From IMG/VR virus record IMGVR_UViG_3300005577_000068, positions 1-31,064 of that record: a stretch of DNA of 31,064 nt. One strand, written 5' to 3'. The position numbers and the translations under genes were made by a program. The notes under the pieces were generated by a model that was given only the letters and a program-made list of their open reading frames with translations, was not told the DNA's origin and did no database searches. The number at the start of each line of letters is the position of its first letter. The stretch's first letter is position 1. Shown here in pieces: positions 2,342 through 23,826 of this stretch. The DNA is from a virus.

Positions 2342-5300
2342 CAGGGCACCCAGGCCGCGGTCAGCGGGCCGCGGTCATTGTCGCCGTACAGGTTCAGGTT
2401 CCGCTTATGGCTCAGGGCGCGCAGGCGCATCGCCTCCTCGATCAGGACGTCGTCAGAGCGGCGCCCAGCCAGGGTGCCCGGCGTCGCCGCGCGCGGGTAG
2501 CGTCCGGGCGTGTCCCGGTTGATCTCCTCGAGGTCGGCGGCGTGCGCGGCCGCGGCCGGGGCCCGGGTCACATGCTCGCCGCCCGTGAGCAGGATCGGCC
2601 GCGGCCCGGTGCTGAACTCGCCTTGCGTCAGAGGGCGGTAGCGGCTGGCCGCCACCAGCGCGGGCACGACGTCGCCCTTGCTGGGGTCGCCGGGCACCCA
2701 GCCGCCCTCCGCGAAGCCGTCGGGATCCCCGGCGCCGCCGGTCGAGCCGGAGCTGCCGCTGACCCCGCCGCTCGCGCCGCCCTCACCGGAGGGCCCGCCC
2801 GTGCCACCGGATGCGCCGCCCGGCCCGCCGCCTGGTGCGCCGCCGGTGCCGCTGGTGCCCTCGCCCACCGACACGCCCTCGTCGGTGGTGACGTCCGTCA
2901 TGGCGCCGACGGTCACCTCGCCTTGCGGGTCCGCGATCGTGGGCTCGCCCACCGTCGCCGTCCCGGGCGGCCCGTCGTCCTGCAGTCCGCTGATGGCATC
3001 TTCCGGATCCACGTCGAGACCGCGGCCGGAGCGCGGCGGCGTGAACGTGATCTTTGGGAGGCTGAGCGTCCGCTTCCCGGGGTTCTGCGTGATCTGCTGG
3101 CGGATCTGGCCGACGACCATGTTGGCGAGGCCGATCAGCGACCCGATCGGGCCGCCGAAGAGACCGATGGCGCTCTCCGCCGCCAGGCCCAGCGCGTTCG
3201 CGATGCCCGCGGGCACGCCCAGCCCCTGCAGCCCTTCCGACACGAGCTCGCCGATCGGGTTCGGCACCGACGGCGTGACCGTGATGACGGAGCTGTCCTC
3301 GTTCGTGATGTTGATGTTGGGGCCGTCGAAGGACACGCTCGAGATGCCGGAGTTGGCCCCGGTCGGCGCCCCGTCGGGGCCCGCTTCCCCGCCCGGCGAG
3401 GTGTTGAGGAGGCTGTCGCGGATGATCCGCGCGATCCCGTCCGGGCCGAACTTCGACGCATCGTTGAGGATCGCGTCTAGCTCCGACGGGCTCAGCTTCT
3501 GGCCGGTGGTCGGGTCGATGAACTCGCCCGTATTCGGGTCGATCGCGACGGAGGGACCGGGCGCGCCGGCCTCGCCGCCGCCGCCGGCGTCACTCCCGGG
3601 CGCGCCGCCAGGGCCCGCCAGCGACGCGCGCCGGTACTCGCCGACCTTGACCTTCGCCTGCAGGCCCGACTCGACGACGTAGAGGGCGAGCGCCCCGTCG
3701 ACGTCCTGCTGGGCGATCCGCTCGAGGATCTTCGCGCGCACGTCGGGCTCGAGGCCCGCGAGCGTCGACTGCACGACGTTGATATTTTGCCCCGCGGCCT
3801 CCGCCAGCCTCGAGAGCGCCAGGACGGTCGTCTTCGTGATGCCGCCGCCCAGCGCCTCCTCGAAGAAGAGGCGCACCTCTGAGCCCAGCGTGCGGATCCT
3901 CGAGGCCGCCTGGCGGATCGCGTTCGCGAGTCGCTCCTCGTAGGGCTGCTTCGCCTCTGCGGCAACGCCGGCCTGGATGCTGACCGTCGCGGTGTCCCCG
4001 TTCGCGACGAGCTCGTCGGGCGTGACCCCCTCGTCGATGACCCGGCGCGTGCGGCCGCCGAAGGTCACGCTGACGATCAGGCCGGCGTCCTCTGCCCCGT
4101 GCGCCTGGCGCTCCCCGCCCCGGCCCGCGTGGGTGTAGCGCCGGACCACCGCGTACAGCTCGTCCGGCGTCTGGGCCGCGTCGAGGTCGGCAAACATGGG
4201 CTGGAAGCTGGCGGCGACGCCCTGGACCTCCTGCTGCTCGCGCTGGGCCTTCGGGACCCGGTTCTTCGCCTTGCCGTAGGCCGCGGCGCCGGCGGAGATC
4301 GCCGCGCCGGCGACCGCGCCGATCAGGGCGCCGTAGCCGCTCTCGCCGAAGTAGTTGCCCAGGGCCGCGCCGGCGGCCGCGCCGGAGACCGCGCCGCCGA
4401 CGCCCGCGAAGGCGACGTCCTGGGTCGTGGTCGCGTACTGCGACGCGCTGTAGGCGGTCAGGCCGACCGCCAGGGCCCCCGCAGCGCCCCCGACGAGGGC
4501 GCTGCTCAGGCTAATGCTCGAGGCCGCCGCAACCTGGGAGGACGTCGGCACCGCGGAGACGGCGCCGCCGAACGGGCTCGCCCCGCTCGCCGCGGCCGCC
4601 ACCAGGTCGCCGCCGGCCGCTCCCACGGGCCCGACGGTGCCGCCGCCGGTGAGCACGACCTGGCCGGAGGCGGTGACGACTCCCGGGCCCGCCATCGTTT
4701 GCACGATGGAGCCGATCGGCGCGTTGGGCGCCGTCCCGACGGCGGCCGCGGCGCTCGCGGTCGACGGGCTGAGCCCCAGCAGGCCCAGCAGCCCGCCGCC
4801 GGCGCCGGCGCCGACCGCGCCCGCCGTCACGGGCGACCGGCCGTCCCCCAAGACGCTGCTGATCGCGCTCCGAAGGGTCGAGGACAGGGTCGACACCAGC
4901 GGGGTCACGACCAGCTCCTGCAGCAGCGAGCGCATCAGCGCCTGCCCGATCTGCTTGCCGATGTCGCCGATCCGGTCGAGGTCGCCGCTCAGGCCGGACA
5001 CGATCAGCTCCGTGATCCCCTGGCCGACGTTCGACATCGACTGGAAGAGCGCCATACGGAAGCGCTCGCCCTGGCGGGAGGCCTGCTCCTCGAAGTCCTG
5101 CAGGCCGCGCAGGGCGCCCGCGGTCGGGTCGTCGCGCTCCGTGCGCGCGCGCTGCCGGGCGGCGCCCTCGAGGGCCCAGCGTTCGGCGGTGACGTCGCGC
5201 TGCTGCTTGAGGATCTCGAGGCGCTCCTGGTCCTGCCGGGTGCCGGTCGACTCCGCGATCGCGGTCTGGGCGTCGATCTCGATCCCCAGGCGGCGGAGCT

Positions 5301-7856: not shown

Positions 7857-8873
7857 CTAGTCGGCGACGATCGCCCAGTCCTCGTCGGTCGAGTCGAGCG
7901 TGCACAGAAGCTGCGTGGGCAGCGACATGATGCCGTCGCGCGCGTTCAGCCCCTGGCCGATGACCTGGACCGTCGCGCCCGGCGTCGCGTTCGCGCTCGC
8001 CCGGAACTTGATTCTGTTGTATTGCGTGGTCCCGAACTGGAAGGACAGGTCCTTGAGCGGCGAGCCCGTGCTCAGCGCGGTCCACCATCCGGAGTCGGCC
8101 TCGCGCGCCGCGTCCGGGTCGATCGCGAAGAGCGGCCGGCGATCGGCGGTGAAGTGCCCCGCAACGCCGCCGGCGGCGTTGATGCAGCGCTGCATCCCCG
8201 GGACGATGCCCATGTCGAAGCCGATATTGGCGATGCAGGGGGCGTAGTTGCTCGAGCCGATCTGGAAGGCGGCGCTCTTCAGCGTCGGATACTGCGGCGT
8301 GGTCGTCAGCACGCCGGCCTGATAGGCGACGTCCCCGCGGCTCAGCGCACCGTAGAAGGTGAAGTCGGCGGCGAACTGTCCGCCCGCCACGCCCGCCCAG
8401 CGCGAGGTCCCGATCGCGCCGGCCAGCTTGATCGCCAGCGCGTTTCCGCCCGGGATCTTCACGACGAGATACACCGTCATGCAGGTGTCGGAGGTCGTCG
8501 GCTGGTAGGTCACCGACTCCGTCCCGGATCCCGTCGCGATCACGCGCGCCGTGCGGCAGCCGCGGACCGGCAGGTCCCACTCCGGCACGACGAGCGGGCT
8601 GTCGTCGTAGGCGACGCCGCGCCCGCGCGGGTACATGGAGAAGCTGATGCTGCCGGTCAGCGGACCCAGCAGCGACGGCGCGCGGCCCAGGCGACCGGCG
8701 GTCATCGTGTTCTGGATCTCGTTCGGGTCCTGGTTGAAGCGCAGGGACCCGGCGCGGACCGGGATGATGTCGGCGGTCGTGTAGCTGCCGCCCAGGATGT
8801 CGGTGCCGGCGACAGACTCCGGCTTCATCACGATCTGTGCTTCCAGCTCCCGCGGGATGGTGATCTCAGCCAT
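7857..8873 (-). CDS. Major tail tube protein
   Basis: A 338-residue beta-rich protein with a good ribosome site (AGGAGGG, seven bases before ATG). It begins MAEITIPRELEAQIVMKPE, followed by SGxTG-like strands typical of tube subunits (GSLRFNQDPNEIQNTMTAGRL, then GSISFSMYPRG). It lies between tail-completion genes and the two chaperone genes, the place of lambda V, whose product polymerises into the tail tube. It is longer than lambda gpV (about 246 residues), so the second half may hold an added domain exposed on the tail surface. The strong ribosome site fits a protein needed in many copies. Confidence 0.85.
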   Translation of the reverse strand: MAEITIPRELEAQIVMKPESVAGTDILGGSYTTADIIPVRAGSLRFNQDPNEIQNTMTAGRLGRAPSLLGPLTGSISFSMYPRGRGVAYDDSPLVVPEWDLPVRGCRTARVIATGSGTESVTYQPTTSDTCMTVYLVVKIPGGNALAIKLAGAIGTSRWAGVAGGQFAADFTFYGALSRGDVAYQAGVLTTTPQYPTLKSAAFQIGSSNYAPCIANIGFDMGIVPGMQRCINAAGGVAGHFTADRRPLFAIDPDAAREADSGWWTALSTGSPLKDLSFQFGTTQYNRIKFRASANATPGATVQVIGQGLNARDGIMSLPTQLLCTLDSTDEDWAIVAD

Positions 8874-8885
8874 GAGTGCGCCCTC

Positions 8886-9377
8886 CTATGGCGTCGCCTG
8901 CAGTGTCTTTGACTCGAAGAAGTGGAGCGTGAGCCGCTGCTCAAACTCTGAGCGCGGCGCCGCTCCGCGGATCGCCGTCTCTCGTGGGCCGACGTCGAAC
9001 GACGAGATCAGCTCGACGCCGCCGGTGTAGAGCTTGTCGCTGGCGTAGAAGGCGGTCATGAAGTCGTCCCAGAGGCGGAGGCGCCAGACCTCGCCGCCGA
9101 TCCCCGACGTCGCCGCGGCGTAGCCGGTGACGCGGACCTCCATCCGATGCCGCACGGAGACCATGCCGCCGACGCTCCCCTCGATCTTCGACTCGCCGCC
9201 GATCTCCTCGAAGGCGAGCGCCGGAACGGGGATATTCGCGTCCGCCGGCCTCGAGCCCTCGAAGACGGTGAGCGCGGCCGGCAGGTACGGGCCGCCCCAG
9301 CCCGGCCGGGTGCCGGTCAGGCTCGCGCCGACCGCCATGAGCGCTTGAAACACGCGCACCGGGTAAGGCTCCGCCAT
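8886..9377 (-). CDS. Tail terminator-like protein (gpU position)
   Basis: A 163-residue protein that starts at ATG 9377 in a TGATG overlap with the gpZ-like gene. It contains a strand-rich region (SVRHRMEVRVTGY, then GGEVWRLRLWDDFMTAFYAS) and a C-terminal strand LTLHFFES. It sits between gpZ-like and tail tube genes, exactly where lambda U (tail terminator, which caps the tube after it reaches full length) is placed. The fold pattern of mixed helix and sheet and the size agree reasonably, but sequence evidence alone is weak. Confidence 0.65.
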   Translation of the reverse strand: MAEPYPVRVFQALMAVGASLTGTRPGWGGPYLPAALTVFEGSRPADANIPVPALAFEEIGGESKIEGSVGGMVSVRHRMEVRVTGYAAATSGIGGEVWRLRLWDDFMTAFYASDKLYTGGVELISSFDVGPRETAIRGAAPRSEFEQRLTLHFFESKTLQATP

Positions 9378-11712: not shown

Positions 11713-13164
11713 TCAGGCGCCGGCGTTCTTGTAGAGGCCGCGGAAGTCGATCGCCTTCGCGGCGAAGTCGTGCCGGCACTTCACCTCGAGGCCGTCGATG
11801 TCGAAGCCGACGCGGCTCTCGACGACGGGGCCTTCCTCGCCGTCCAGGAAGCCGTATTCGATGATGTCGATCTGGTCCGTCGAGGCGCCCAGATACCAGG
11901 CGGTCGTCGAGCCCGCGACCGTGTCGCCGTCGACGGTGACGCCGCCGGCGAGGCGGGGCTCCGAGATCACGGACAGCCGGCCCGCGAACGGGTTGACGCT
12001 GCTGCCCAGGGCCGGGGTGATCGCGGTGGTGAACTGGTCCGCGATCGTCTCCTTCTCCGGCGGCACCATCAGCGACCGCGCGACCAGGTTGAGGTAGTTC
12101 GTGCCGCCGGCGAGGCCGGTCTGCTTGCGCATCAGCGCGCGGCCGACGCCCAGGGAGTCGATGCTGATCGCGGTCCCGGAGCTCGTGAGGTTGTTGTGCG
12201 TCGCGTGGAACAGGGCGACGGTGTCGGCCATCGCGGCGTTCTTCAGGATCTGATACCAGATCACGTCCGACTCGAGGTTGCGGGCGGAGCGCCCGAACAT
12301 CGTCGTCAGCCGGCCGAAGGCGTCGAGGTCATCGTTGACCAGGCCCTGCCGGGTGATCGCGAAGATCTTGCCGTAGGTCGCGAGCTGAAACTGCTCCTTG
12401 CCTTCGGCGACGGAGCCGCGGCGGAACTCGCCGTGCTCGAGCACCTTCTCGAGGGCCGGGGCCTCGCCGAGCTGGTTCCGCTTCACCGGCTTGAAATCCG
12501 GCATGTTGATCCGGCGCGCGATCGGCGTCCAGGTCGCCGGCGCCTCGTCGTAGGCGCGACGCAGCGACTTGTTCGCCACGTCGGCGAGCAGGTTCGGGAA
12601 GTCGGAGGTGGTGTGCATCCCCGCCCGGACGTGGAAGCCGAACGCCGCCGCGGCCAGCTCCATCTTCGTCAGCGAGCGGGTGCGGATCCCGCGCTGCTCG
12701 AGGCACTCCGCCGCGATCTCGAGCAGCGACCGCGAGCGATACTGCTTCGCGTTGTCGTCGAGCTTCCAGTGGTCCGGCGAGATCCGGTGCAGCAGCGCGC
12801 CGGTGATCCCGCGCCAGACCTGCTCGAGCGGATCGGCGCCGACGAACTCGACGCGGCCGCTGGTCGGGCCCGGCTTCGGGCCCTGGCCGTCCATCGCGCG
12901 GCCGCGCAGGGTCTCGAGGACCTGGGCCTGCGCGTCGAGCAGCGGGGTCTTCTCCGCGATCATGCGCTGGGCCGTCGTCATCGGCAGGCGGCCGGCCTCG
13001 CACGCGGACAGGATGCCCTGGATCCGGGCCCGCTCCTCGTCGACCGCGCGATCGGCCGCGTTCGGCACGACGGCGGGCTGCGGCTGGGGCTGGCCGCCGG
13101 CGGGCGCCGGCTGCGGCTGACTCGGCTCGGGCTGCTCGCGGGTCTCGAGCTCGACTGGATCCAT
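11713..13164 (-). other. Possible internal start giving stand-alone capsid protein (483 residues)
   Basis: Within the fusion gene, ATG 13164 (Met205, MDPVELETREQPEP) is preceded by AGGAG seven bases upstream, a better ribosome site than that of the full-length start. The product would begin right after the protease domain and contain the linker and the whole capsid domain. This would let the phage make capsid protein in excess over protease, comparable to the nested C/Nu3 genes of lambda. It is a sequence-based prediction. Confidence 0.5.
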
Positions 13165-13776
13165 TGCGCTGCTCCTCTCGGGTGTGGGTGCGCCGCGCGT
13201 GATGACGCACGGATTGGTCGGAACGGTCTCGCTCCGGATGTTGGCGGCGTCGTCAGCGGCGATCGGGACGGCGCTGACCTCGAAGGGCTCCCAATCGGTC
13301 GCGTGCATTTTGCGGAGGGTGTTCTTCGCGGCGGGCGTCTCTTCGTACTCGTAGACGCGATAGCCGACGCTGATCTTGCGGACGATGCCGTCCTGCACGT
13401 CCTGCCAGATCGGCTCGACGTCGGCGCGCCGCGAGAAGCGGATCCGTGCGCGGCCCTGCGTGCCGTCGACCTTCGCGGATCCGTCGTTGACCGCGCCGAT
13501 GACGTTGCGAAGGGAAAACGCCATGTGCGAGTCGAGGACGGGCGCGCCGTTGTTCAGGCGGCCCAGCCGGACATGCTTCGACTCGAGGGAGAGGCTCTCG
13601 AGCCAGCGCTCGCCGGTGAGCCAGTTGAAGCGCTCGACGGGCGTGCCCTGAGACCAGACGACGTCGACGGATCGGTCGGTTCGATTGATCGAGGCTGGGA
13701 CGATGTCGGCGCGGACGCTGAAGGCGGGAACATCGACCGTGCGCTTCGGATCCCCGGCTGACGCGGCGCGCTCCAT
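11713..13776 (-). CDS. Prohead protease / major capsid protein fusion
   Basis: A 687-residue fusion. Residues 1-~185 form a HK97-type (U35) prohead protease: LDSHMAF carries a likely catalytic His84, RKISVGYRV a likely catalytic Ser136, and WEPFEVSAVPIAADDAA (162-178) is the conserved family end. Residues ~200-260 are a Pro/Gln/Glu-rich linker. From ~265 on is the capsid part, with a helical delta-domain-like region, then FPNLLADVANKSLRRAYDE, GEFRRGSVAEGKE, LVNDDLDAFGRL and GLEVKCRHDFAAKAIDFRGLYKN at the C-terminus, all familiar in HK97-fold capsids of the fusion class. The first ATG lacks a clear ribosome site, whereas an internal ATG (13164) has a strong one. Confidence 0.92.
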   Translation of the reverse strand: MERAASAGDPKRTVDVPAFSVRADIVPASINRTDRSVDVVWSQGTPVERFNWLTGERWLESLSLESKHVRLGRLNNGAPVLDSHMAFSLRNVIGAVNDGSAKVDGTQGRARIRFSRRADVEPIWQDVQDGIVRKISVGYRVYEYEETPAAKNTLRKMHATDWEPFEVSAVPIAADDAANIRSETVPTNPCVITRGAPTPERSSAMDPVELETREQPEPSQPQPAPAGGQPQPQPAVVPNAADRAVDEERARIQGILSACEAGRLPMTTAQRMIAEKTPLLDAQAQVLETLRGRAMDGQGPKPGPTSGRVEFVGADPLEQVWRGITGALLHRISPDHWKLDDNAKQYRSRSLLEIAAECLEQRGIRTRSLTKMELAAAAFGFHVRAGMHTTSDFPNLLADVANKSLRRAYDEAPATWTPIARRINMPDFKPVKRNQLGEAPALEKVLEHGEFRRGSVAEGKEQFQLATYGKIFAITRQGLVNDDLDAFGRLTTMFGRSARNLESDVIWYQILKNAAMADTVALFHATHNNLTSSGTAISIDSLGVGRALMRKQTGLAGGTNYLNLVARSLMVPPEKETIADQFTTAITPALGSSVNPFAGRLSVISEPRLAGGVTVDGDTVAGSTTAWYLGASTDQIDIIEYGFLDGEEGPVVESRVGFDIDGLEVKCRHDFAAKAIDFRGLYKNAGA

Positions 13777-14110: not shown

Positions 14111-14472
14111 CCGCGAGCCTCCTCCTCGTTCCCCTCCCCCGTGACCGCCGAGATCACCGCGTCGCGGGCGATCTGGAAGGAGCGGTCCCCGTTGTGATCG
14201 TGCCGCGGCTGCAGCGCGCGGGCGGCCGCGAGGCGCTCCTCGAGCGGGCCGTCGACCTCGAGCTCCGCGACCGCGCGATCGCGGCCGGCGGTGAAACACT
14301 GCGGGCAGGCGTGGTCCGGGACCGGCATCTTCTTGACCCCGGCCAGGCGATCCTTCGCGCCCTTGACCTTGGCGATGTCCGCGCGGACCTTGTCCGATCC
14401 CTTGGGTTCGCCCGGGCCCGCGGCTCCCGCGCCTGGTTCCATGCGGTTCGTCAGCTCTCCGTCCTTGATCAT
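14107..14472 (-). CDS. Hypothetical protein with single Cys pair
   Basis: A 121-residue hydrophilic protein starting at ATG 14472 with AGGAGG six bases upstream, in an ATGA overlap with the repeat-protein gene. The N-terminal half is Lys/Gly/Pro-rich and probably disordered; residues 51-62 (PDHACPQCF) contain a CxxC that could bind a metal with His neighbours; the C-terminal half is charged and helical (LEERLAAARALQ; SFQIARDAVISAV). I do not recognise a family. Its tight coupling to flanking genes suggests expression with the virion block. Confidence 0.65.
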   Translation of the reverse strand: MIKDGELTNRMEPGAGAAGPGEPKGSDKVRADIAKVKGAKDRLAGVKKMPVPDHACPQCFTAGRDRAVAELEVDGPLEERLAAARALQPRHDHNGDRSFQIARDAVISAVTGEGNEEEARG

Positions 14473-15662
14473 GTCGATCCTCCTGTGGCGACGACGAGGA
14501 TGTCCTCGTCGGGTTCGGCCTCGATGGCAATGACCCACTGCCCGGGGTTGGCGACGGCGCCCAGGCCGCGCGCGGTCGGCGCGACGGCGCGCCCTCGAGC
14601 GTCGGCGGTGATCCGGAGGCGCCCCCGGGCCTGCACCCGGGCGCCAGCGGCCTCGAGCTGCCCGCGCCCCGGGATCCTGACGGTCGCGACGGCGTCGGCC
14701 GTCGCCGGCGCCGCGACCAGGCGGCCGACGCCGGTGATGCGCGGCGGCCGCGCGGCGATGCCTGGGGAGGGCGGCGCCTCCTCCTCCGGCCCGACGCTGA
14801 GGCTGCCCTGCGCGGTTGCGGTCGCCGTGACGAAGGCCGCGAGGCGGATCCCCGTCGTCAGCGCGCCGGCCGCGCTCGCCGTAGCGGTCACCGCGGCCGC
14901 GAGCTGGTCGCCGGGCACGCTCAGGTCGCCACTGGCTGTAGCGCTGGCCGACACAGACGCGGCGAGGCGGATCCCGGTCGTCAGGGCGCCAGCGGTCTGC
15001 GCCGACGCGGCGACCGCCCCGGCCAGCGGCTTCGGAACGGTCAGATCGCCGGCGGTCGAGGCGGCGGCGCTGGCTGCGGCCGCGAGGCGAATGGCCGTCG
15101 AGAGGACCGCCTGCGCGGCCGCTGTCCCCTGGATCGAGGCCGCGAGCCGGATCAGCGCGGTCAGGGCGCCGGCGACGGATGCCGTGGCGGTGACGGAGGC
15201 GGCCGGGCGGATCGACGTGCTGAGCACGCCGGCGACCTGGGCCGTCGCGGTGACCGACGCGGCCGCCCGGATCTGGGTCGTGAGCGCGCCCGCAACCTGG
15301 GCCGTCGCAGTGACGGCTGCGGCCGGGCGGATCTGCGTCGTCAGGGCGCCCGCGACGGATGCCGTGGCCGTGACCGCGCCGGCCAGCCGGATCGACGTCG
15401 AGAGCGCCCCGGCACCCTGCGCGGTCGCCGTCACGGAGGCGGCCGCGCGGATCTGAGTCGTGAGGGCGCCGGCGGTCGTCGCCGTGGCGGTGATCGAGGC
15501 CTCGAGCTCCGCGGCGGCGCCGATGAGCCCGAAGACCAGCTCGCCCGTCTCCGCGACATGCCCGGTCCCGTCACCATGCGAGATGACAAGCTGGCCGGTC
15601 GCGACGACGATCCACTGCCCGCCGATGAAGCTGACGAGCGCGCCGGTCGAGGTCTGCGCCAT
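14469..15662 (-). CDS. Alanine-rich protein built of twelve 20-residue repeats
   Basis: A 397-residue protein. Residues 1-50 (SFIGGQWIVVATGQLVISHG) form a small strand-rich head; residues ~56-296 are twelve nearly regular 20-residue repeats with the pattern S/A-V-T-A-T-A-x-x-A-G-A-L-T-T-x-I-R-x-A-A; the rest is another strand-rich segment ending in a short acidic tail. It has no Cys and no signal peptide, unlike the genes next to it upstream. Repeats of this kind appear in phage fibre-like or stalk proteins and may form a beta-solenoid or trimeric shaft; this is inferred. It shares the transcript with the secreted-protein genes and overlaps the next gene (ATGA). Confidence 0.78.
   Translation of the reverse strand: MAQTSTGALVSFIGGQWIVVATGQLVISHGDGTGHVAETGELVFGLIGAAAELEASITATATTAGALTTQIRAAASVTATAQGAGALSTSIRLAGAVTATASVAGALTTQIRPAAAVTATAQVAGALTTQIRAAASVTATAQVAGVLSTSIRPAASVTATASVAGALTALIRLAASIQGTAAAQAVLSTAIRLAAAASAAASTAGDLTVPKPLAGAVAASAQTAGALTTGIRLAASVSASATASGDLSVPGDQLAAAVTATASAAGALTTGIRLAAFVTATATAQGSLSVGPEEEAPPSPGIAARPPRITGVGRLVAAPATADAVATVRIPGRGQLEAAGARVQARGRLRITADARGRAVAPTARGLGAVANPGQWVIAIEAEPDEDILVVATGGST
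14775..15497 (-). repeat. Twelve tandem 60-bp coding repeats
   Basis: The DNA shows a 60-bp period for about 720 bp: for example gccgtcgcggtgac / gccgtggcggtgac begins successive units at 15181, 15241, 15301 and 15361. Units differ mainly at third positions and at a few codons, so they are diverged copies; one unit carries a three-base insertion. The period equals 20 codons exactly, keeping the frame. Such arrays can gain or lose units by recombination. Confidence 0.9.
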
Positions 15663-15696: not shown

Positions 15697-18390
15697 CTAG
15701 TACCGCCAGAGCCAGAGGGAGTTTGTATCGCCGCCGGCGCAGAACTGCTGCCCCGCCATGATGGTGACGTCGTCCTTCGCGTCGTAGGCCATGCTGTTGC
15801 CGTGCACGCCGGCCGGCGCGGCGAACGCTTCCCATGAATCGGAGGGCGGGTCGTAGACCAGCATCTTCGTGACCGTCCCGCACGGACCGTCGGTCGTGTA
15901 CGGATAAATGACTTTGTTGTTCTTGGAGTCGAAGTCGACCCAGGTGAAATACGCCATGTAGCTCGTGTCCTGATCAAGCGGCGGCGCGACGGGCGCGTGG
16001 GTCTTCATCGCCCAGGTGTTGGTCACCCGATCGAAGACGAACATGCCGAGTCTGACCTCGACGGTATTGCCTGGCTGATCGACTCGGCGCACGGGCACGA
16101 CGGCGTAGAGCTTCCGCCTGGCGTTGTCCCAGCCGAAGAAGACGCGGTGCGGAGACTGCGGGGTCAGCCATCCCCCGGTCTCGCCGGACCAGGCCGGGCT
16201 TGGACGCAAGCACAGATCGAAGGCCTGCTGCGCCAGCGTCGCGAGCGTCGTGACGATCAATTGCCCGACGCAATCGCCGCTGCTCTCGAAGTGCAGCATG
16301 GCGTCCGCCGCGCTGTCGTAGGCGCCGCCGCCAAGCGAGCTGCCGGGCCCGCCCTTGTATTCCCACTGGCCGGTCGCCTTCGCCCACTTGAGCAGGCCCA
16401 GGCGCTGGATCGCGCCGCCCGGGCCGCACGGCTGGCCCTCTTCATCGGGAGGAAAGGGCAGGCTGTTCCTGTACCAGATGTCGCTCCGACTGTCCTCGAT
16501 CATCGGCCCACGGTCGGACGGATGATTGAGCACGATGGGGCTGACGCTCGCTGGGACGCACGCCGGCACGACGACCGCCCAGAGATCTCGCGCGGCGTCG
16601 TAGCTGTAGAGGTTGCTATCCGCGCCTGAGTTGCAGACGTCCCCGGTGCCCCAGAGGACGCTCCCGTCGAGGCGGCGCGCGCGGTTGACGTCCTTGCTCC
16701 CACACCGCGACGGGAAGGGATTCCCGGTCATGGGCGTCGCGCGCTGCACGAACGTCCGGCTTGGGATGGTGAGACCGCCGGATGGCGGCGGCGGAGGCGG
16801 AGGTGGCGGAGGAGGAGGCGGCGGCGGATCGACCGGCGGAGGCGGAGGTGGCGGCAATGTCCCGCCCGGCTTCCACTCCCAGACTTCCGTCCCGTTGCCG
16901 GAGACCAGCAGGAGCACCCGCTGGCGCACGCGATCGTAGAGCGGGATGTATTTCACGATCGGCACCGGGCTTGGGCTCAGCGCCATTTGCTGCTTCCGCC
17001 AGACGCGCGTCGCGAGGTCGAGCAGGTACGTCTCCGCGACCACGGTGCCGCACGGGTCGCTCGAGTTGGTGCAGCCCGCGTAGCCGACGATCGTGTTGGC
17101 GGCCTCGTGGAGCGCGAACACCGTCAGCGATGGCGGCTTCGGCCCGGTCGTCGGGATCAGCGTCCACTTGTTCGCGGCCGGGTCGTAGTCGTACAGCTCC
17201 TGGAAGTTGCCGACGTACCACAGGTGCCCGGTCCGGCGGTCGATGCCGCCGCGGAGCATTCCGATCCGCGCGCCGTCCTGGGTCCCGTCCTCGATCTTGG
17301 GCGGCAGCGGCGGGTTCGGGTTCAGGTCGATCCAGGGCGCGCTGATCGGCGAGAGCGGCTTCTGCCGCAGCGGGCCCATGCCCCAGCCGGCGAAGCAGTA
17401 GAGGACCTTCCGTTGCGGGTCGACGGCGACGACGGCGTCCGCCGCACAGGCGGTCGGGGCGATCGTGTAGGTGCGCGCCACGGGATCGAAGACCTGCGCG
17501 CTGTCGAGGTCGCCCATCGGCATTCCGGCCTGGGCGCCCAGCCAGGCGACGCCGTTGACCGGATCGAAGTCGGTCCCGAAGTTCTCCCGCTTGCCGCTGA
17601 CCTCCGGCGTCGTCGCGATCCTCGCCCAGGTGTTGGCGGCCGGGTCGTAGAGGTGCGTCCCCGCCCAGGTCATCCACACCTTCCCGTGGTCGGCGTGGCC
17701 CGGCTTGTCGATCACGAAGGCGTGGCTCCAATACCAGCCCCACGGCGCCACGCTCGTCGCCAGGTGCTGGACCCAGGTGCCCATGCCCCCACTCGCCGGT
17801 GGCACCGGCGGGTCGGTGATCGTCACCGTGCACGCCAGCGCGGTCGCGGGCATCACGATCGAGACACTCGCATTCGAGGTCTGCGGACAGCCCGCCGGGC
17901 CGCTCCACTGCACCGCGGCGCCCGCGACCGACGGCGTCGCGGTCAGGGCGACCGTCGCGCCGGCGAGATAGCTGCCCGCGCCGGTGGTCGTCCCAGCGCC
18001 GACGGTCGAGACGGTCAGCGGATACGTCGTCGGCTGCGGCGCCGGTGTCACCGTCCGCGTGCACACCTTGTTCGCGGCGGGCTGCTTCATGGAATCGGCG
18101 CAGCCGCTCGACCAGGCGCCCAGGCTCGAGCCGTTGGTCGGCTTCACCGAGAGGGTCAGCGCCGTGCCCGCGAGCTGCGGCCCGGTCGGCGTCACCGACG
18201 TCGTCGCGGTGCCGCCGCCGGCGAGCGCGATCGTCGTGGTGAACTTCGGCGCCGGTGGTGTGCAGACCAGGCCGCTCGAGGTCACGCTGCAGCTCGAGCC
18301 GAGCGGAATGGTCTGCGCGCCCGCCATCGACGCCACGACCAGGAACTGCAGGAAGGCGAGCAGCGAAAGGACGTGTAGCTGCTGCAGCAT
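15697..18390 (-). CDS. Secreted double kelch-propeller protein with polyproline hinge
   Basis: An 897-residue protein from ATG 18390, preceded by GAGGAGG. Residues 1-26 form a Sec signal peptide (hydrophobic LLAFLQFLVVASMAGAQ, cleavage after AGA likely). Residues ~45-200 hold two bacterial-repeat/Ig-like domains (each with a paired Cys and TVS...GSYLAGATVALTATP type pattern). Residues ~205-510 make a kelch/galactose-oxidase-like propeller with blades such as HLYDPAANTWARI, YDYDPAANKWTLI and TYLLDLATRVWRK. Residues ~512-536 are almost pure proline. Residues ~545-897 form a second propeller (LYSYDAARDLWAVV, MFVFDRVTNTWAMK, MLVYDPPSDSWEAF). There are 18 Cys, an even number fitting disulfides outside the cytoplasm. 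No copper-ligand set of galactose oxidase could be confirmed. Role unknown; adhesion or cell-surface function is possible. Confidence 0.85.
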   Translation of the reverse strand: MLQQLHVLSLLAFLQFLVVASMAGAQTIPLGSSCSVTSSGLVCTPPAPKFTTTIALAGGGTATTSVTPTGPQLAGTALTLSVKPTNGSSLGAWSSGCADSMKQPAANKVCTRTVTPAPQPTTYPLTVSTVGAGTTTGAGSYLAGATVALTATPSVAGAAVQWSGPAGCPQTSNASVSIVMPATALACTVTITDPPVPPASGGMGTWVQHLATSVAPWGWYWSHAFVIDKPGHADHGKVWMTWAGTHLYDPAANTWARIATTPEVSGKRENFGTDFDPVNGVAWLGAQAGMPMGDLDSAQVFDPVARTYTIAPTACAADAVVAVDPQRKVLYCFAGWGMGPLRQKPLSPISAPWIDLNPNPPLPPKIEDGTQDGARIGMLRGGIDRRTGHLWYVGNFQELYDYDPAANKWTLIPTTGPKPPSLTVFALHEAANTIVGYAGCTNSSDPCGTVVAETYLLDLATRVWRKQQMALSPSPVPIVKYIPLYDRVRQRVLLLVSGNGTEVWEWKPGGTLPPPPPPPVDPPPPPPPPPPPPPPPSGGLTIPSRTFVQRATPMTGNPFPSRCGSKDVNRARRLDGSVLWGTGDVCNSGADSNLYSYDAARDLWAVVVPACVPASVSPIVLNHPSDRGPMIEDSRSDIWYRNSLPFPPDEEGQPCGPGGAIQRLGLLKWAKATGQWEYKGGPGSSLGGGAYDSAADAMLHFESSGDCVGQLIVTTLATLAQQAFDLCLRPSPAWSGETGGWLTPQSPHRVFFGWDNARRKLYAVVPVRRVDQPGNTVEVRLGMFVFDRVTNTWAMKTHAPVAPPLDQDTSYMAYFTWVDFDSKNNKVIYPYTTDGPCGTVTKMLVYDPPSDSWEAFAAPAGVHGNSMAYDAKDDVTIMAGQQFCAGGDTNSLWLWRY
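16782..16855 (-). repeat. Proline-codon (CCN) tract
   Basis: The + strand reads as a long series of GGN triplets, i.e. CCN codons on the coding strand. It encodes about seven prolines, a Val-Asp break and about fifteen more prolines between the two propellers. Long proline runs normally stall ribosomes unless EF-P assists, and the tract may vary in length between relatives. Confidence 0.85.
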
Positions 18391-18407
18391 CGGGGGCCTC
18401 CTCAGCT

Positions 18408-19109
18408 TCAGTCTTGCGCCCCGGCATCGACGCAGGCGTCGATCGAGGTGCGGAGCTGCGCCAGCGTGCGCGGCGCCATCGCGGGCTGACGCCGGACGAC
18501 GACCGCCCAGGTCCCGCTTGCGGGGTTCGCGACGGCGCCGGTGCCGTTGTGCAGGCGCACGTTGACCGTGTTCGCGGCGCTGATGTAGCCCGTCGCCGTG
18601 ACCCCGGCCAGCGTGTAGGGCGCGATGACGTCGACGATGTCGCCGAAGGCCGCGCCGGTGACCGTGACGTTGGGGCTGGTCACGCCCGTCGCGTTGTTCA
18701 TACTCGCGGGATCCCACACCGCGGTCTGCGTGCCGATCACCACGCCGCGGAGCAGGTTGATCTCGTCCTTCAGGATGTCGGCGAAGCAGCGGAGCGCCTT
18801 GCCGAGCTCCGTCGCGCTCGCCCACTGCGCCTTCGCCAGCGTGCGCGCCCGGAGATTTTCATAGCTGGTCTGCGCGCCCGCGCTCCAATCAAAGGCATTG
18901 ATCGTCGCCTGGGCACAGGCCTGCTGCGCGGCCGGCTGGACGGTGACCGACGCGGCGACGCCCGGCGTGCCGATCGAGAGCCCGACCACGGAGGGACAGA
19001 CCGCGACGACCGCCTCGTGCAAACGCAACGAGATCGCGGTCTGCGCGTGGGCCGGCAGCGCGATCGCGCCGACCAGGACCAGGGCGAGCCAGAGGCCGCG
19101 GGTCAGCAT
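18408..19109 (-). CDS. Signal-peptide protein with phage structural-type C-terminal domain
   Basis: A 233-residue protein with ATG 19109 overlapping the previous stop by seven bases (ATGCTGA). Residues 1-22 (GLWLALVLVGAIALPAHAQ) are a Sec signal peptide with AHA before the cut. The middle is helical, with YENLRARTLAKAQWASATELGKALRCF. The C-terminal ~90 residues (VWDPASMNNATGVTSPNVTVTGAA...DIVDVIAPYTLAGVTATGYISAANTVNVRLHNGTG) match a beta-sandwich module common in phage structural proteins, where GD..LV......L.G......VSAANTV.V...N.TG is the recurrent signature. Four Cys lie outside the signal. A virion-type module behind an export signal is odd. Function unknown. Confidence 0.8.
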   Translation of the reverse strand: MLTRGLWLALVLVGAIALPAHAQTAISLRLHEAVVAVCPSVVGLSIGTPGVAASVTVQPAAQQACAQATINAFDWSAGAQTSYENLRARTLAKAQWASATELGKALRCFADILKDEINLLRGVVIGTQTAVWDPASMNNATGVTSPNVTVTGAAFGDIVDVIAPYTLAGVTATGYISAANTVNVRLHNGTGAVANPASGTWAVVVRRQPAMAPRTLAQLRTSIDACVDAGAQD

Positions 19110-20392
19110 TCCAGGATCGCTACCAGGCCGGCCTCCGACGATCCGGTCGCGGAGCCGCCGCCGGTGAATTGCACCGTGCCCAGGCTGAGCGTCGTCTCGA
19201 TCGCCGCGAGGTAGTGGTAGCCCCTCGACGTGACGCCGCGCCAGGAGGCCTTGAGGACGTCGGCCTGGTCGATGGTGGCGCTCGCCGAGGAGGCATAGGC
19301 CCGCCCGGCGGGGCCCATGCGCGCGGTCGTCGAGTCCAGGCCGACGCCCACCATCGCGAGCCGGGAAATGCCCGCCGTAATGGCCGCGTACCATTCGCCG
19401 ATGACATCGACCGCCACCGGCATCGGCGAGCCGGAGACGTACTCGACCTTATTCCCCGCGGCGTTGTTGAATTGCCGGAATCCGCCGTTATAGGTCCACG
19501 ACGCGGTGTCGTCGCGCACGCTCGCCGCGCAGCGCACGCGGTTGTGCTGATTCCACAGGAAGCGCTTGCCGCCGACCTGGCTGACGACGCCGCCGAAGCT
19601 GTCCTCCGTGACCGTCGTGCTCACCGGGTAGAACGTCCCGACGAGCTGGCGCGTCTTGTCCGTCGTCTTCGTGCACGGGCTGGTGTAGGTGCTGATCGGG
19701 CCCTCGCGACACGTCACGTTCGCCGCGGGCACCGTCGCGGAGGACCACTGCAGGAGCTCGAGCGTCCAGCCGCTCGCGACCCGCGCCAGGAAGACGTCGA
19801 CGGGAATCGTCGCGCTGCCCAGCGTGCCGATCGCGACGCTCAGCTCGCTCGGGATCGCCGCCTGCTGCCACTTGCCGCCGGTCCAATACGGCGCCCAGCA
19901 GTGGACGAAACAGGTGTAGCGGACCGTCGTCGACTGGATCCCGAACGGCCGGATCTCCGCGGTGATCGACGCCGTCAGGTTGACCTTGCTGGTGCCGGCC
20001 TCCGCATTGGCGAGCGTCGTGTGGTACGAGACGACCGTCGGCGAGCCGACCGCGCTGCTGACGTTGACCCAGTACGTCGTCCCCGCCGTGAGCCCGCCGC
20101 CCGTCGCGGACGGCGTCACCATCGTCCCGGTGCACCATCCCAGGTTGAGGAACGTCGTCGACTCGGCCGTCGTGTCGGTGCTCGAGGGCGTCGCCGGCAC
20201 CGGACCGTAGGCGGGGTTCTGCGTGCAGAGCGTGAGCCGCCCGCCGGGCGCGTAGGGCACGGCCGACGGCATCATCGTTGGGCCGGTCCACGGCGCGCCG
20301 GAGCTGCCCCACGGGTTGACCTGGGCGGACGCGGGACCGACTGCGAGGAGGCCGATCAGCAGCAGGAGGAGCGCGGCGGCGCGGCGCTTCAC
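19103..20392 (-). CDS. Large secreted protein of unknown function
   Basis: A 429-residue protein with a GTG start that overlaps the previous stop by one base (TAGTG). Residues 1-23 form a clear Sec signal peptide: KRR, then AAALLLLLIGLLAVG, then ASA cut before QVNPWG. The mature part is rich in Thr, Ser, Val and Trp with strand-like alternation and has eight Cys, suggesting disulfide-bonded beta-domains. Strings such as FLWNQHNRVRCAASVRDDTASWTYNG and VDVIGEWYAAITAG give no family I recognise. It ends in Cys. Gene coupling ties it to the three other exported proteins. Confidence 0.8.
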   Translation of the reverse strand: MKRRAAALLLLLIGLLAVGPASAQVNPWGSSGAPWTGPTMMPSAVPYAPGGRLTLCTQNPAYGPVPATPSSTDTTAESTTFLNLGWCTGTMVTPSATGGGLTAGTTYWVNVSSAVGSPTVVSYHTTLANAEAGTSKVNLTASITAEIRPFGIQSTTVRYTCFVHCWAPYWTGGKWQQAAIPSELSVAIGTLGSATIPVDVFLARVASGWTLELLQWSSATVPAANVTCREGPISTYTSPCTKTTDKTRQLVGTFYPVSTTVTEDSFGGVVSQVGGKRFLWNQHNRVRCAASVRDDTASWTYNGGFRQFNNAAGNKVEYVSGSPMPVAVDVIGEWYAAITAGISRLAMVGVGLDSTTARMGPAGRAYASSASATIDQADVLKASWRGVTSRGYHYLAAIETTLSLGTVQFTGGGSATGSSEAGLVAILEC

Positions 20393-20745
20393 TACTTCAC
20401 CCGGACGCAGCGCACCCAGATCAGCGCATTATTCGCGGCGCCGGTGCCCGGCTTGATCCGGTAGCGCTCCGTCTCCGTGTTGCGCAGGAAGACCGGCCGG
20501 CCGACTTGCGGATCCGTCAGCGTTTCCCCGCACGTCTCGTTGGTCCCGTCATAGGTGCAGAGCTTGATCGTGTCGCTATGGTCGACGGTCTGACAGATAT
20601 TCTCCGTGCCCGCGCTCGCGGCCAGGTCGAGCGTGTCGCTGGTGTCGAAGTCGGTGTCCTTGAAGATCACCGTATCGCCGACCGCCGCGTGCGCGGCCGC
20701 CGTGGCGACGAGGACCAGGACGAGCGCGAGGAGCCCGCGTCGCAT
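20392..20745 (-). CDS. Small secreted Cys-containing protein
   Basis: A 117-residue protein that opens RRGLLALVLVLVATAAAHA, a Sec signal peptide with cleavage likely before AVGDTV. The mature ~97 residues include four Cys (ICQ, LCTYDG, TCGETL, RCVRV) and a strand pattern. The junction with the upstream gene reads GTGATG, so the start is GTG 20748 or ATG 20745; ATG is used. The product may be a small disulfide-linked periplasmic or surface protein. No family recognised. Confidence 0.78.
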   Translation of the reverse strand: MRRGLLALVLVLVATAAAHAAVGDTVIFKDTDFDTSDTLDLAASAGTENICQTVDHSDTIKLCTYDGTNETCGETLTDPQVGRPVFLRNTETERYRIKPGTGAANNALIWVRCVRVK

Positions 20746-21182
20746 CACGCCAGCGTCACGTCGAGCGCGCCGATCGCGTAGTTCGGCGCGGCGTCGCCGT
20801 CGTTGACCGTCTTCGGGTTCGTCAGCGCGCCGTAAAAGAGCATGTTGCCGCCGGTCGGCGCGTCCCAGATCCCGAAGTGCGTGCAGACGCCCCAGTTCGC
20901 GCCCGACGGCGCCGGGAATGTGATCGCGACGGCGTTGTCGGTGTGGCCGCCGGTGCCGCTCGAGTTGCCGGAGGTGCCGCCCTGGGTCGAGGTCCAGTTG
21001 GTGTCGCTGGGGTCGAGCTGGGCGCGCGCGTAGGCGCCGCCGCTCACCTCCGCGCCGCTCCCCGCGTCGGTCGGGTCCGCGGTGTGCAGGGAGACCCAGA
21101 GCGCACTCGGCTTCGAGAAGGTCGCCGCGCGGAAGACGTGGTCGATCAGCTTGTTCTCGAGGTAGTTGCTGAAGGCCGACAT
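20745..21182 (-). CDS. Phage structural-type protein (tail-fibre-like family)
   Basis: A 145-residue protein starting MSAFSNYLENKLIDHVFRAATFSKPSALWVSLHT, followed by ADPTDAGSGAEVSGGAYARA and FPAPSGANWGVCTHFGIWDAPTGGNMLFYG. This is a widespread phage family sometimes annotated as tail fibre or head-associated protein; the N-terminal LENKLIDH...FS.P...WV.L.TADPTD motif is very characteristic. No signal peptide. It marks the boundary between conventional phage proteins and the exported group downstream. Exact virion position is not known to me. Confidence 0.78.
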   Translation of the reverse strand: MSAFSNYLENKLIDHVFRAATFSKPSALWVSLHTADPTDAGSGAEVSGGAYARAQLDPSDTNWTSTQGGTSGNSSGTGGHTDNAVAITFPAPSGANWGVCTHFGIWDAPTGGNMLFYGALTNPKTVNDGDAAPNYAIGALDVTLA

Positions 21183-21188
21183 CGGGTT

Positions 21189-21602
21189 TTAGCCCCCTCT
21201 CGGTTGCGTGTAAACGAGGCTGGTGATCACGACCTCTGCCCCGGCGATGATCGTGGCGACGGGCAGCTCGAGGTCGGCGCGCGAGCCCTCGAGGCCGACC
21301 GCCCCGTCGAAGATGGCGCGTCCGTCGGCGCTCACCGCCCGGAACCAGGTCGGCGGGCCGTTGGCGAGCGCGCGCGCGGCGGCCAGTGGGTGCGCGGTTG
21401 CCGTGCCGTCCTTGGCGGGGCCGAAGGCCGGATCCGCGAAGGCGACCTCGACCAGGCGGATCGCGGTGTCGCCGGGCGAGCCGTCCGCGGAGCGCGGCCG
21501 CGGCCCGCTATAGATCCGCAGCCCGCCGCCGTTCAGGAGGGCGACGACCGCGTCCGCAGCGGCGTCGACCGCGCGCCGGGCCTGGCGGAAATCACTCGGC
21601 AT
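21189..21602 (-). CDS. Small phage structural-type protein, family common in phages
   Basis: A 137-residue protein starting at ATG 21602, overlapping the end of the portal gene. It has the arrangement AADAVVALLNGGGLRIYSGPRP, then LVEVAFADPAFGPA, GPPTWFRAVSADG, AIFDGAVG and a C-terminal VATIIAGAEVVITSLVYTQP. This is a small beta-domain seen in many phage genomes, LRIYTG and WFR....G..V.DG.VG being the steady points. Role unassigned; likely a virion or appendage protein together with the 20745-21182 product. Confidence 0.72.
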   Translation of the reverse strand: MPSDFRQARRAVDAAADAVVALLNGGGLRIYSGPRPRSADGSPGDTAIRLVEVAFADPAFGPAKDGTATAHPLAAARALANGPPTWFRAVSADGRAIFDGAVGLEGSRADLELPVATIIAGAEVVITSLVYTQPRGG

Positions 21603-23826
21603 CGGTGGCGGGGATCCCGCTCCCTGGCTCGACCGGCGGGCGCGCCGGCACGCGAACGACCGTCACGGTCGGCGGGGCCGGCGCCTGCTGGACGGTGACC
21701 GGCGACGAGATCTGCACGGCGCCTTCGGCGATCGTCGTCCGGGCATCGACCTCGACCGCGGGCGGATGGACCTCCGTCCGCACCGCGCCGTCGGCGAAGG
21801 TCACGGAGGGCGGCGCGACGGAGACCGCCAGCGAGCCGGGCTCGAGCGTCGTCCGCGCGTCCACCGCGATCGCCGGCGGGTGCACCTCCGCCCGGATCGC
21901 GCCCTCCGCGATCGTCAGCGAGGGCGGCGCGACCGACACCGCGAGGGCGCCGGGCTCGAGGGTCGTCCGCGCGTCGACGTGCACCTCCGCCGGCGGCGCG
22001 GCCGCGACCTCGACGGCGCCGCGCTGCAGCGTCGTCCGCGCATCGACGTAGACCTCCGCCGGCGGCGGCGGGGCGACCTGGACGGCGCCGGCCTCGACGC
22101 GAACGTCGGTCCGGGCGTCGATGTTGGGCGCCGGCGCCGCGGCGACGTGGGCGTGCACCTCGAGCGGCCGGACGGCGTCCAGGCGGGCGCGCAGGTCGGC
22201 GAGCTCGAGCTGCAGGACCCGGACGCTGGCCGCGCCGGCGGGCCGGTCCTCGAGGTGCCCGGCGCCATTCCTCGAGCCGTTGCCGTTCCCGTTGCTCGAG
22301 GGCGCCGCCGGCGGCTTCGCGGGCGCGTCCGCGCTCGAGCCGTCCGCCTTCGAGCTGTCCCGCGGGTTGCCCGCCTGGGTCGTGCGCCGCGGGTCGGAGT
22401 CGAGGATCACGCCGGCCCGGTCCAGCTTCTTGTTCCAGGCCTCGATTTCGCCCAGGACCTTGTCGGGGTTGAGGCCCCGCTCGCGCATCATGTCCGGCCA
22501 GGACGTGGCGCCGATCCGGAGCATTTTCTGGTAAGCCGAGGCCTCCGCCTCCGGGTCGATCGCGGGCATCGCCGGCGCCGTCCACTCGATCGGGCCGGTG
22601 ACCGTCGGGAGGCGCATGACCGCGGCGGCCTGGTTCGCCCAGCGCCAGGACGGATCACAGAACTGGGGCACGATCAGGCGCCAGCGCCAGTCTTCGATCC
22701 GCGCCCAGGACCGGATCCGGGACATGCGCGCCGCGGAGAAGGGCATCCCCTGGTAGTCGCCGCACAGGTCCTCGTAGGTGATCCCGATCCCCGACGCGAT
22801 CGCGCGCAGGACCGTCCGCGCGTAGGCCTCGTGCTCGCTCACGGAGGGCGGTTGGACGACGGTGACGGTGCGGCCGGTCGGCAGGTTGGCGATCATGCCG
22901 GGCTCGATCGCGTCGATCGCCGGCGTCGTCGAGCTGTCGGCCGTGCCCAGCGCCGGCGCCGTGCCGTCGGGGTCGGTCGTGAGCACCGCGAGGCAGGCGG
23001 CGATCTTCTGCTTCAGGAGGGCCGCGTCCTCGTAGTCGTCGAAGTCCTTCAGGCGCAGGATCACCGGCGCGAGCCAGGACATCCCGCGGACCTGGCCGGG
23101 CCGCTCCGGCTTGAAGACGTGCAGGATCTCGCTCGCGGGGATCGGCCTCGAGTTGCGGGATCGGGTGACCCGGGTGCCGCTCGCGCCGGGGTGATCGTCG
23201 AAGAGCCAGTAGTTCACCCGCGCGCCGATCGGGCTGAACTCGACGCCCTGGATGATCTGACCGCCGGTGCCGGTGACGCCCTCCTTCGTCGTGTCGAGCA
23301 GGTCGGGCTCGATGAGCTGAAGCTGCAGCGGGATCGGCAGGCCGTCCTCGGGCCGCCGCCAGCGCCGTCGCACCAGGCACTCGCCCGCCTCCGCCGTCGT
23401 GCGGGTGACCTGCTTCTGCAGGCCGGCGAAGTCGTAGCGCCCGTCGGCGTCGCACGCCGTCGTCTCCGCCCACGGCTTCCACCAGGTCGGCGGCGAGCCC
23501 TGGGCCACGATCCCCCAGCCGACGACGTGGTCGGCGATCGTGTTCAGCGCCGCGGCCGCGTAGGGGTTGTTTCGGACCAGGTCGCGCGCGACCTCGCGGG
23601 TGCGCTCGAGGCCCTGGCCGATCACCGCGTTCACGTCGCCCGTGTTGCGGCGCCAGCCCTGGGTTCGGCGACCGGAGCTCGCCGCGTCGTAGGCGCGCAG
23701 GAGGGCCGCCTCGTAGCGGGCGCGCTGCCGGCGCAGGGTGAAGCGTGGCGCGAACGTCGACGTCACGAGGTCGACGAGCTCGCCGATCCGGATCGCCGCC
23801 TGGGCCGCGAGGTCGGTCGGCGTCAC
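21592..23826 (-). CDS. Portal protein, lambda family, with repetitive C-terminal extension
   Basis: About 744 residues. The first ~510 match lambda-family portals: SSGRRTQGWR, ...RDLVRNNPYAAAALNTIADHVVGWGI, GECLVRRRWR, LQLIEPDLLD, YEDAALLKQKIAACLAVLTT, SGIGITYEDLCGDYQGMPFSAARMSRI and MMRERGLNPDKVL. The portal forms the dodecamer through which DNA is packed and to which the tail joins. Beyond ~515 is a Ser/Asn/Gly linker, then ~200 residues of VDARTTLEPG-type repeats not present in plain portals (usual length ~500-550). Start: GTG 23826 gives a GTGA overlap with the gpW-like gene; a TTG two codons upstream (23832) is also possible. Confidence 0.93.
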   Translation of the reverse strand: MTPTDLAAQAAIRIGELVDLVTSTFAPRFTLRRQRARYEAALLRAYDAASSGRRTQGWRRNTGDVNAVIGQGLERTREVARDLVRNNPYAAAALNTIADHVVGWGIVAQGSPPTWWKPWAETTACDADGRYDFAGLQKQVTRTTAEAGECLVRRRWRRPEDGLPIPLQLQLIEPDLLDTTKEGVTGTGGQIIQGVEFSPIGARVNYWLFDDHPGASGTRVTRSRNSRPIPASEILHVFKPERPGQVRGMSWLAPVILRLKDFDDYEDAALLKQKIAACLAVLTTDPDGTAPALGTADSSTTPAIDAIEPGMIANLPTGRTVTVVQPPSVSEHEAYARTVLRAIASGIGITYEDLCGDYQGMPFSAARMSRIRSWARIEDWRWRLIVPQFCDPSWRWANQAAAVMRLPTVTGPIEWTAPAMPAIDPEAEASAYQKMLRIGATSWPDMMRERGLNPDKVLGEIEAWNKKLDRAGVILDSDPRRTTQAGNPRDSSKADGSSADAPAKPPAAPSSNGNGNGSRNGAGHLEDRPAGAASVRVLQLELADLRARLDAVRPLEVHAHVAAAPAPNIDARTDVRVEAGAVQVAPPPPAEVYVDARTTLQRGAVEVAAAPPAEVHVDARTTLEPGALAVSVAPPSLTIAEGAIRAEVHPPAIAVDARTTLEPGSLAVSVAPPSVTFADGAVRTEVHPPAVEVDARTTIAEGAVQISSPVTVQQAPAPPTVTVVRVPARPPVEPGSGIPATDAE
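21695..22125 (-). repeat. Degenerate repeats at portal C-terminus
   Basis: Five copies of (V/I)DART(T/D), separated by 23-37 residues and followed by E.GA(L/V).V..APP strands, cover about 140 residues. Two central copies also share SVAPPS(L/V)T.A(E/D)GA(I/V)R(A/T)EVHPPA. The DNA copies are recognisable (gtccgcgcgtccacc / gtccgcgcgtcgacg). Confidence 0.8.

Follow-up and report, generated by a model that had tools for sequence, protein, structure and literature searches.

Four consecutive genes between the portal and capsid genes of a virus record are predicted to encode exported proteins, and two of them, A429 and A233, are related to phage fibre proteins. Export of the four products is a well-supported prediction, and its combination with an unusual placement inside a head operon is likewise supported. 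The DNA provides predicted signal peptides on all four products, a predicted fibre-knob fold in A429, a signal-less counterpart of the A429-A233 pair in the fibre cassettes of other phages, and a related cassette, likewise with predicted signal peptides, at the corresponding position in the nearest relative, L007. The reading preferred here, tentatively and with somewhat less than even confidence, is that a fibre/receptor-binding cassette has been re-addressed to the Sec pathway and is made late to bind glycans of the host surface, with receptor blocking or progeny release as the outcome.

Gene order and predicted signal peptides

The window, i.e. the whole stretch of DNA that was analysed, is an IMG/VR virus record of 31,064 bp with a GC content of about 0.71. 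Its minus strand carries every head and tail gene. The order on this strand is portal, PHROG 3758, Gp80, A118, A429, A233, A897, a 397-aa repeat protein, two small genes and a fused protease/capsid gene:

21592..23826, minus strand: portal protein (PF05136, phrog_21)
21189..21602, minus strand: PHROG 3758 virion structural protein (PHROG match)
20745..21182, minus strand: Gp80/PHROG 240 virion protein (PF23140, E=4e-48; PHROG 240; PDB 8jou_a, E=2e-18)
20392..20745, minus strand: A118, small beta-rich protein, 117 aa, 4 Cys, predicted signal peptide MRRGLLALVLVLVATAAAHA followed by AVGD
19103..20392, minus strand: A429, 8 Cys, C-terminal C1q/TNF-like fibre-knob (lectin-type) domain, predicted signal peptide MKRRAAALLLLLIGLLAVGPASA followed by QVNP
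18408..19109, minus strand: A233, 4 Cys, predicted signal peptide MLTRGLWLALVLVGAIALPAHA followed by QTAI
15697..18390, minus strand: A897, 18 Cys, weaker predicted signal peptide MLQQLHVLSLLAFLQFLVVASMAGA followed by QTIP
14469..15662, minus strand: 397-aa repeat protein, no Cys, no signal peptide
11713..13776, minus strand: fused prohead protease/major capsid protein (phrog_4523, E=3e-210)

The four products comprise 117/118 aa (A118), 429 aa (A429), 233 aa (A233) and 897 aa (A897). A118 starts within the stop of the Gp80 gene (1 bp overlap), A118 and A429 share 1 bp, and A429 and A233 share 7 bp. A gap of 17 bp separates A233 from A897, whose ATG is preceded by a Shine-Dalgarno-like GGAGG. 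Coordinates, strand, lengths, overlaps and gap agree with the earlier note. Since the starts of A118, A429 and A233 overlap the preceding stop and A897 follows GGAGG, the signal peptides lie within the translated sequence.

Genes were called and signal peptides scored with simple scripts of our own, the scoring being a heuristic by which a set of ten known signal peptides of E. coli obtained 9.8-15.0. A118 scored 17.8, A429 16.6, A233 13.7 and A897 10.5, which bears out the earlier assignment of a Sec signal to each product, the one on A897 being weaker. All four have the n-region, hydrophobic core and AxA cleavage site of Sec/SPase I substrates. Three are strong, and A897 scores lowest because its n-region has no Lys or Arg. 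Cleavage is predicted between Ala and Ala or Gln, and a lipobox Cys at +1 is absent from all four. Among the other genes located up to eight positions from the capsid gene in 143 relatives, 27 of 1710 (1.6%) score 10 or more, so that four signal-peptide genes in a row are not due to chance.

The cysteine counts after the signal (4, 8, 4 and 18) and the absence of Cys from the 397-aa protein were reported correctly in the earlier note, which read the even numbers as consistent with disulfide bonds formed outside the cytoplasm. Counts and enrichment hold (34 Cys in 1676 aa of the four vs 30 in 5899 aa of other structural genes; Fisher p = 5e-8), but all-even counts alone carry little weight, arising in 1 of 16 cases by chance. 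Nor do they prove an oxidising compartment, since disulfide links are abundant in virions of phage Milano, a feature of the particle for which no export signal is required (PMC10491603). A general rule of Sec-linked Cys gain was ruled out by the exported A233 relative of L007, which has no Cys.

The hydrophobic N-termini might instead be membrane or assembly tags, either uncleaved anchors or pieces removed by the prohead protease. The signal predictions are heuristic and the n-region of A897 lacks a positive charge, as this explanation would allow. However, three proteins possess the full n-h-AxA architecture with A/Q or A/A junctions, Cys is enriched in keeping with export, and the phage protein phrog_22694 described below repeatedly gained or lost signals of this kind. 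Such tags are considered very improbable.

The interval between portal and capsid genes

The fused protease/capsid was used as query for finding relatives. Searching viral and genome contigs for the capsid, and adding a small number of phage records, gave 143 loci with portal and capsid. The interval between the two is empty in 114 of these. Portal adjoins capsid in the isolates RcKemmy and RcFrancesLouise (Rhodobacter phages), LPPA33 (Pseudomonas), MinM1 (Synechococcus) and yong2 (Microcystis). The earlier description of the four genes as lying between portal and protease/capsid, an unusual place, is thus upheld, but the portal gene itself is not adjacent, as the Gp80 and PHROG 3758 genes intervene. 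The PHROG 3758 gene, common to the window and L006/L007, forms the portal-side edge of the insert. Its capsid-side edge is marked by the C-terminus of the 397-aa protein, which is kept in L007:9053-9466. The gene of this protein (14469-15662) contains 60-bp tandem units, and the L007 relative is very different in length (137 aa).

Large inserts occupy the slot in the window, L006/L007 (one virus type), L058, L070 and L088. Signal-peptide genes are present in the slot of the window (four), L006/L007 (two) and L058 (two), and in these types only. L070 has a transposase-like gene and L088 opposite-strand genes. Nine of 48 slot genes score 10 or more vs 27 of 1710 outside. The former count contains the four genes from which the analysis set out; without them it is 5 of 44.

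Related glycosyltransferase-like genes fill the slot in L031:8603-9349, L059:8796-9533 and L062:1989-2729. A SASA-type carbohydrate esterase (PF03629) is encoded in the slot at L058:8205-9185, beside two signal-peptide proteins. SGNH-like proteins similar to this esterase come after A429-type fibres in L217 and in phage Rivra.

The widely varying contents, from glycosyltransferase-like to transposase-like genes, would suit passenger genes without a selected function at this position, for instance after chance relocation of a fibre module. Long intact frames, the recurrence of signal-peptide proteins in the slot and the conservation of relatives of A233 and of the repeat protein in L007 argue against passengers, which are regarded as quite improbable.

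The four genes have a GC content of 0.69-0.72, the same as their surroundings. A consensus scan, which is a weak test, found no promoter- or terminator-like site for them on their strand. They are joined by overlaps and do not resemble morons with an own promoter/terminator and deviating composition. PADLOC models gave no anti-phage defence match for the four, and a comparison with NCBIfam returned nothing useful.

A lysogenic-conversion cargo would consist of surface or secreted proteins altering the lysogen, e.g. its adhesion or matrix, and parked in the head operon. The L007 contig bears an integrase and further signal-peptide genes elsewhere, and the Kelch/InlB-like architecture of A897 is typical of secreted bacterial proteins. 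Overlap-coupled genes in a late structural operon, the result of the promoter and terminator scan, the unremarkable GC content and the phage-fibre kin of A429 and A233 speak against such a cargo, which appears rather improbable.

The nearest cellular capsid relative (49%) was found on a Thermoleophilia MAG contig (L107). A host from that phylum was considered and dropped, no capsid relative being present in 395 other genomes of the phylum.

Fibre-type proteins with and without signal peptides

Used singly as queries against IMG/VR, none of the four detected a relative. Relatives were obtained from profile scans with the alignments A4 and A6, while a profile A8 applied to 385 genomes of one class gave merely two interrupted domain matches. 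Tail fibre or receptor-binding domains of phages were recognised in A429 and A233. A118 has no fibre-type domain, and A897 offers a propeller only.

The C-terminal domain of A429 matches the 'tail spike' of Pam5 and gp20 of Rivra (tblastn, 27-28% identity over about 270-290 aa). A profile search found relatives in 42 viral loci. Among those with a called gene, only the L217 relative has a signal peptide. The AF2 model of A429 is confident for mature residues about 130-400. In Foldseek, the knob resembles the BC2L-C N-domain, PLTL, C1q and the Pgp3 C-domain (TM about 0.5-0.6 by target) as well as uncultured Caudovirales proteins. Good alignments comprise short TNF/C1q domains only. The PDB matches with the best E-values, large multidomain proteins with TM <0.2, were rejected as a size artefact. 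Cys density is 1.97% in A429; the median of 29 relatives is 0.74%, with one of them equally high. About 27 residues separate the predicted cleavage site from the knob; the corresponding stretch covers 44 to 260 residues in relatives, many having 110-260, and is also short in L234 and L215.

A233 consists of a helical middle (DEINLLR) and a tailspike-type C-terminal domain, phrog_23388, which also occurs on a spike-like protein of a Sulfitobacter phage and on other phage proteins. Its AF2 model (pLDDT 52) was too poor for use. Full-length relatives in L233 and L234 are 50-56% identical over 200 aa and have no signal peptide. Both loci encode an A429-like followed by an A233-like protein (L234, 2803-3726 then 3728-4348; L233, 1395-3719 then 3719-4348). 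The pair lies in an ordinary fibre cassette, has 0-2 Cys per protein and no signal peptides, and is followed by other spike/propeller genes. Since its members are directly adjacent in these cassettes, the A429-A233 order is a fibre-cassette order. Just downstream of the signal-less A429-A233-like pair, two signal-peptide proteins are encoded in L274, one of 167 aa (14751-15254) and a probable beta-helix of 362 aa with 6 Cys (15834-16922).

On the capsid tree, the window groups with L007 as its sister (100/97). The slot of L007 encodes a predicted exported A233 relative without Cys (8520-9053), located behind a signal-peptide protein of 869 aa with fibre-like repeats. A118, A429 and A897 are absent. 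Separate tail-end genes without signal peptides follow the tape measure on the L007 contig, and given these genes the exported fibre is probably an extra one. The contig also carries an integrase gene and two more signal-peptide proteins, one of 141 aa with 4 Cys and one of 408 aa with 11 Cys (L268:3264-4632 and L267:18694-19920). No isolate relatives were found for the exported fibre of L007 or for an exported beta-helix of L233.

For A118, no relatives were detected in Pfam, PHROG, NCBIfam or phage searches. A897 combines a Flg_new_2/InlB B-repeat-like domain, a Kelch beta-propeller, a Pro-rich linker and a C-terminal region resembling a second propeller. PF18998 and Kelch families score above the Pfam cut-off, and Kelch matches were obtained in the PDB. 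Only weak similarity (E=0.003) links the C-terminal half to the first propeller.

The complete set of four was found in no other locus, L007 keeping a relative of A233 only. Conserved features are the slot, the family of A233, the succession of A429 and A233, and a tendency to add signal peptides. The earlier proposal of a jointly made envelope structure was not borne out: A429 and A233 are fibre-cassette proteins by their sequence relationships, and the four genes are not inherited together. They are not a new type of envelope complex but appear fibre-related.

Signal peptides were also found on other phage proteins. The beta-protein phrog_22694 (166-170 aa) is signal-less in Hiyaa, a Bradyrhizobium phage and a Microcystis phage. 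In L009, L032, L034, L043, L045, L070 and L107, where it is encoded at capsid +6 to +8, it has a signal peptide of 22-30 residues; in L058, L044, L048 and L047 of the same capsid clade it has none. The signal ends where the signal-less proteins begin, having been added cleanly at their start Met. At least three switches are required by the capsid tree, on which the sister pairs L070/L048 and L032/L058 differ. Horizontal transfer of the gene is an alternative to gain and loss of the signal.

Beyond this clade, Pam3_26 (L280:3944-4399) and Pam5_19 (L002:12840-13307) are signal-peptide proteins with 77% identity, encoded right after the fibre genes. Both phages are cultured cyanophages of one host with otherwise barely similar genomes. 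In the cultured Sinorhizobium phage PBC5, an SGNH-hydrolase-like protein with a signal peptide is encoded behind the fibre genes (L025:9873-10922). No paper on signal peptides of tail fibres was found in a literature search of open-access full text. Gain and loss of a Sec signal on virion-type proteins (fibre knobs, phrog_22694) may represent a recurrent switch in a soil siphophage clade, and 'soluble fibres' a general strategy; this wider claim is put forward with more reserve than the reading of the four genes. If true, particle parts would become secreted proteins acting on the surface of the infected cell or on its surroundings.

The main rival explanation is that of virion adhesins or head decorations, which are exported first and join released particles once lysis brings these into contact with the periplasmic or surface pools. 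The homologues are ordinary fibre or virion-type proteins, the neighbours Gp80 and PHROG 3758 are virion proteins, and a Gp80 homologue is part of the phiM5 particle proteome. A spike-like protein in the fibre cassette of L217 has both a signal peptide and a fibre-shaft motif; this protein and a fibre-like one from L256, also with a signal peptide, have the appearance of genuine tail fibres or spikes, which fits a virion role. However, no tailed phage is known to us that assembles by export and subsequent attachment. The stretch before the knob of A429 is short compared with the 110-260 residues that possibly serve attachment in many relatives, although L234 and L215 are short too. For the exported Pam3 protein, gp26, there is no PDB match, whereas the Pam3 fibre structure has been solved, which is weak evidence. 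The separate tail-end genes of L007 provide a mild argument against a virion role. Attachment after lysis is judged unlikely, if less so than a lysogenic cargo.

Proposed role and comparison with known systems

In the preferred reading, a fibre/receptor-binding cassette would have been inserted between portal and capsid genes, each protein being given a Sec signal peptide. The coupled placement in the structural operon would imply late, lytic synthesis. The proteins would leave the cytoplasm, away from virion assembly there, and form disulfides on folding. Glycans or polymers on the surface of the infected cell may then be bound by A429 through its C1q/TNF-type knob and by A897 through its Kelch propeller(s). 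Occupation of the phage's own binding sites would block superinfection, and a late surface binder may help progeny to leave the lysing cell without adhering to it or to debris. The role would be that of T5 Llp, with fibre parts in place of a lipoprotein. Receptor masking, one of the roles suggested in the earlier note, would remain the most likely function of the four proteins. The window ends within tail genes, and the phage's own receptor-binding protein was not recognised there. The lack of a lipobox, which precludes Llp-type anchoring and leaves retention at the surface without an explanation, and the further outer-membrane step that a diderm host would need count against this reading, as does the lack of a relative for A118.

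The usual assumption is that receptor-binding domains work as parts of the virion. If a lineage repeatedly fuses proteins with such domains to export signals, secretion would be a further use that phages make of them. This would bear on superinfection and the release of progeny, on assays of phage resistance, and on annotation, where such genes would be miscalled tail proteins. The cultured Pam3 and Pam5, with an exported protein encoded beside the fibre genes, make the idea testable now.

Llp of T5/BF23 has been proposed to exclude superinfection and to cut the loss of progeny on debris. Its gene adjoins the receptor-binding gene oad, and Llp blocks the receptor (PMC4728585). The four proteins resemble it in being phage-encoded, exported (here by prediction) and located beside a receptor-binding gene. 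However, Llp is one small lipoprotein, while several proteins with fibre-type domains and without a lipobox are encoded here in a head operon; the analogy is functional only. Gp18 of Pseudanabaena phage Pam5 and gp20 of Agrobacterium phage Rivra share the C-terminal knob domain of A429, but start without a signal peptide and are located in the tail/fibre region. The fibre cassettes of L233/L234 agree in families, order and adjacency with A429-A233 and differ in the absence of signal peptides. Pam3_26 and Pam5_19 are signal-peptide proteins directly after fibre/spike genes, but belong to another family and are encoded by single genes near the lysis genes. The gene just upstream of A118 belongs to the family of phage GP4 'fiber I' gp80 (PF23140), genes of which head fibre cassettes in other phages; its product has no signal peptide and is not among the four. 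The lambda morons Lom and Bor are also phage-encoded exported proteins, but each is encoded singly, and neither is known to be related to fibres.
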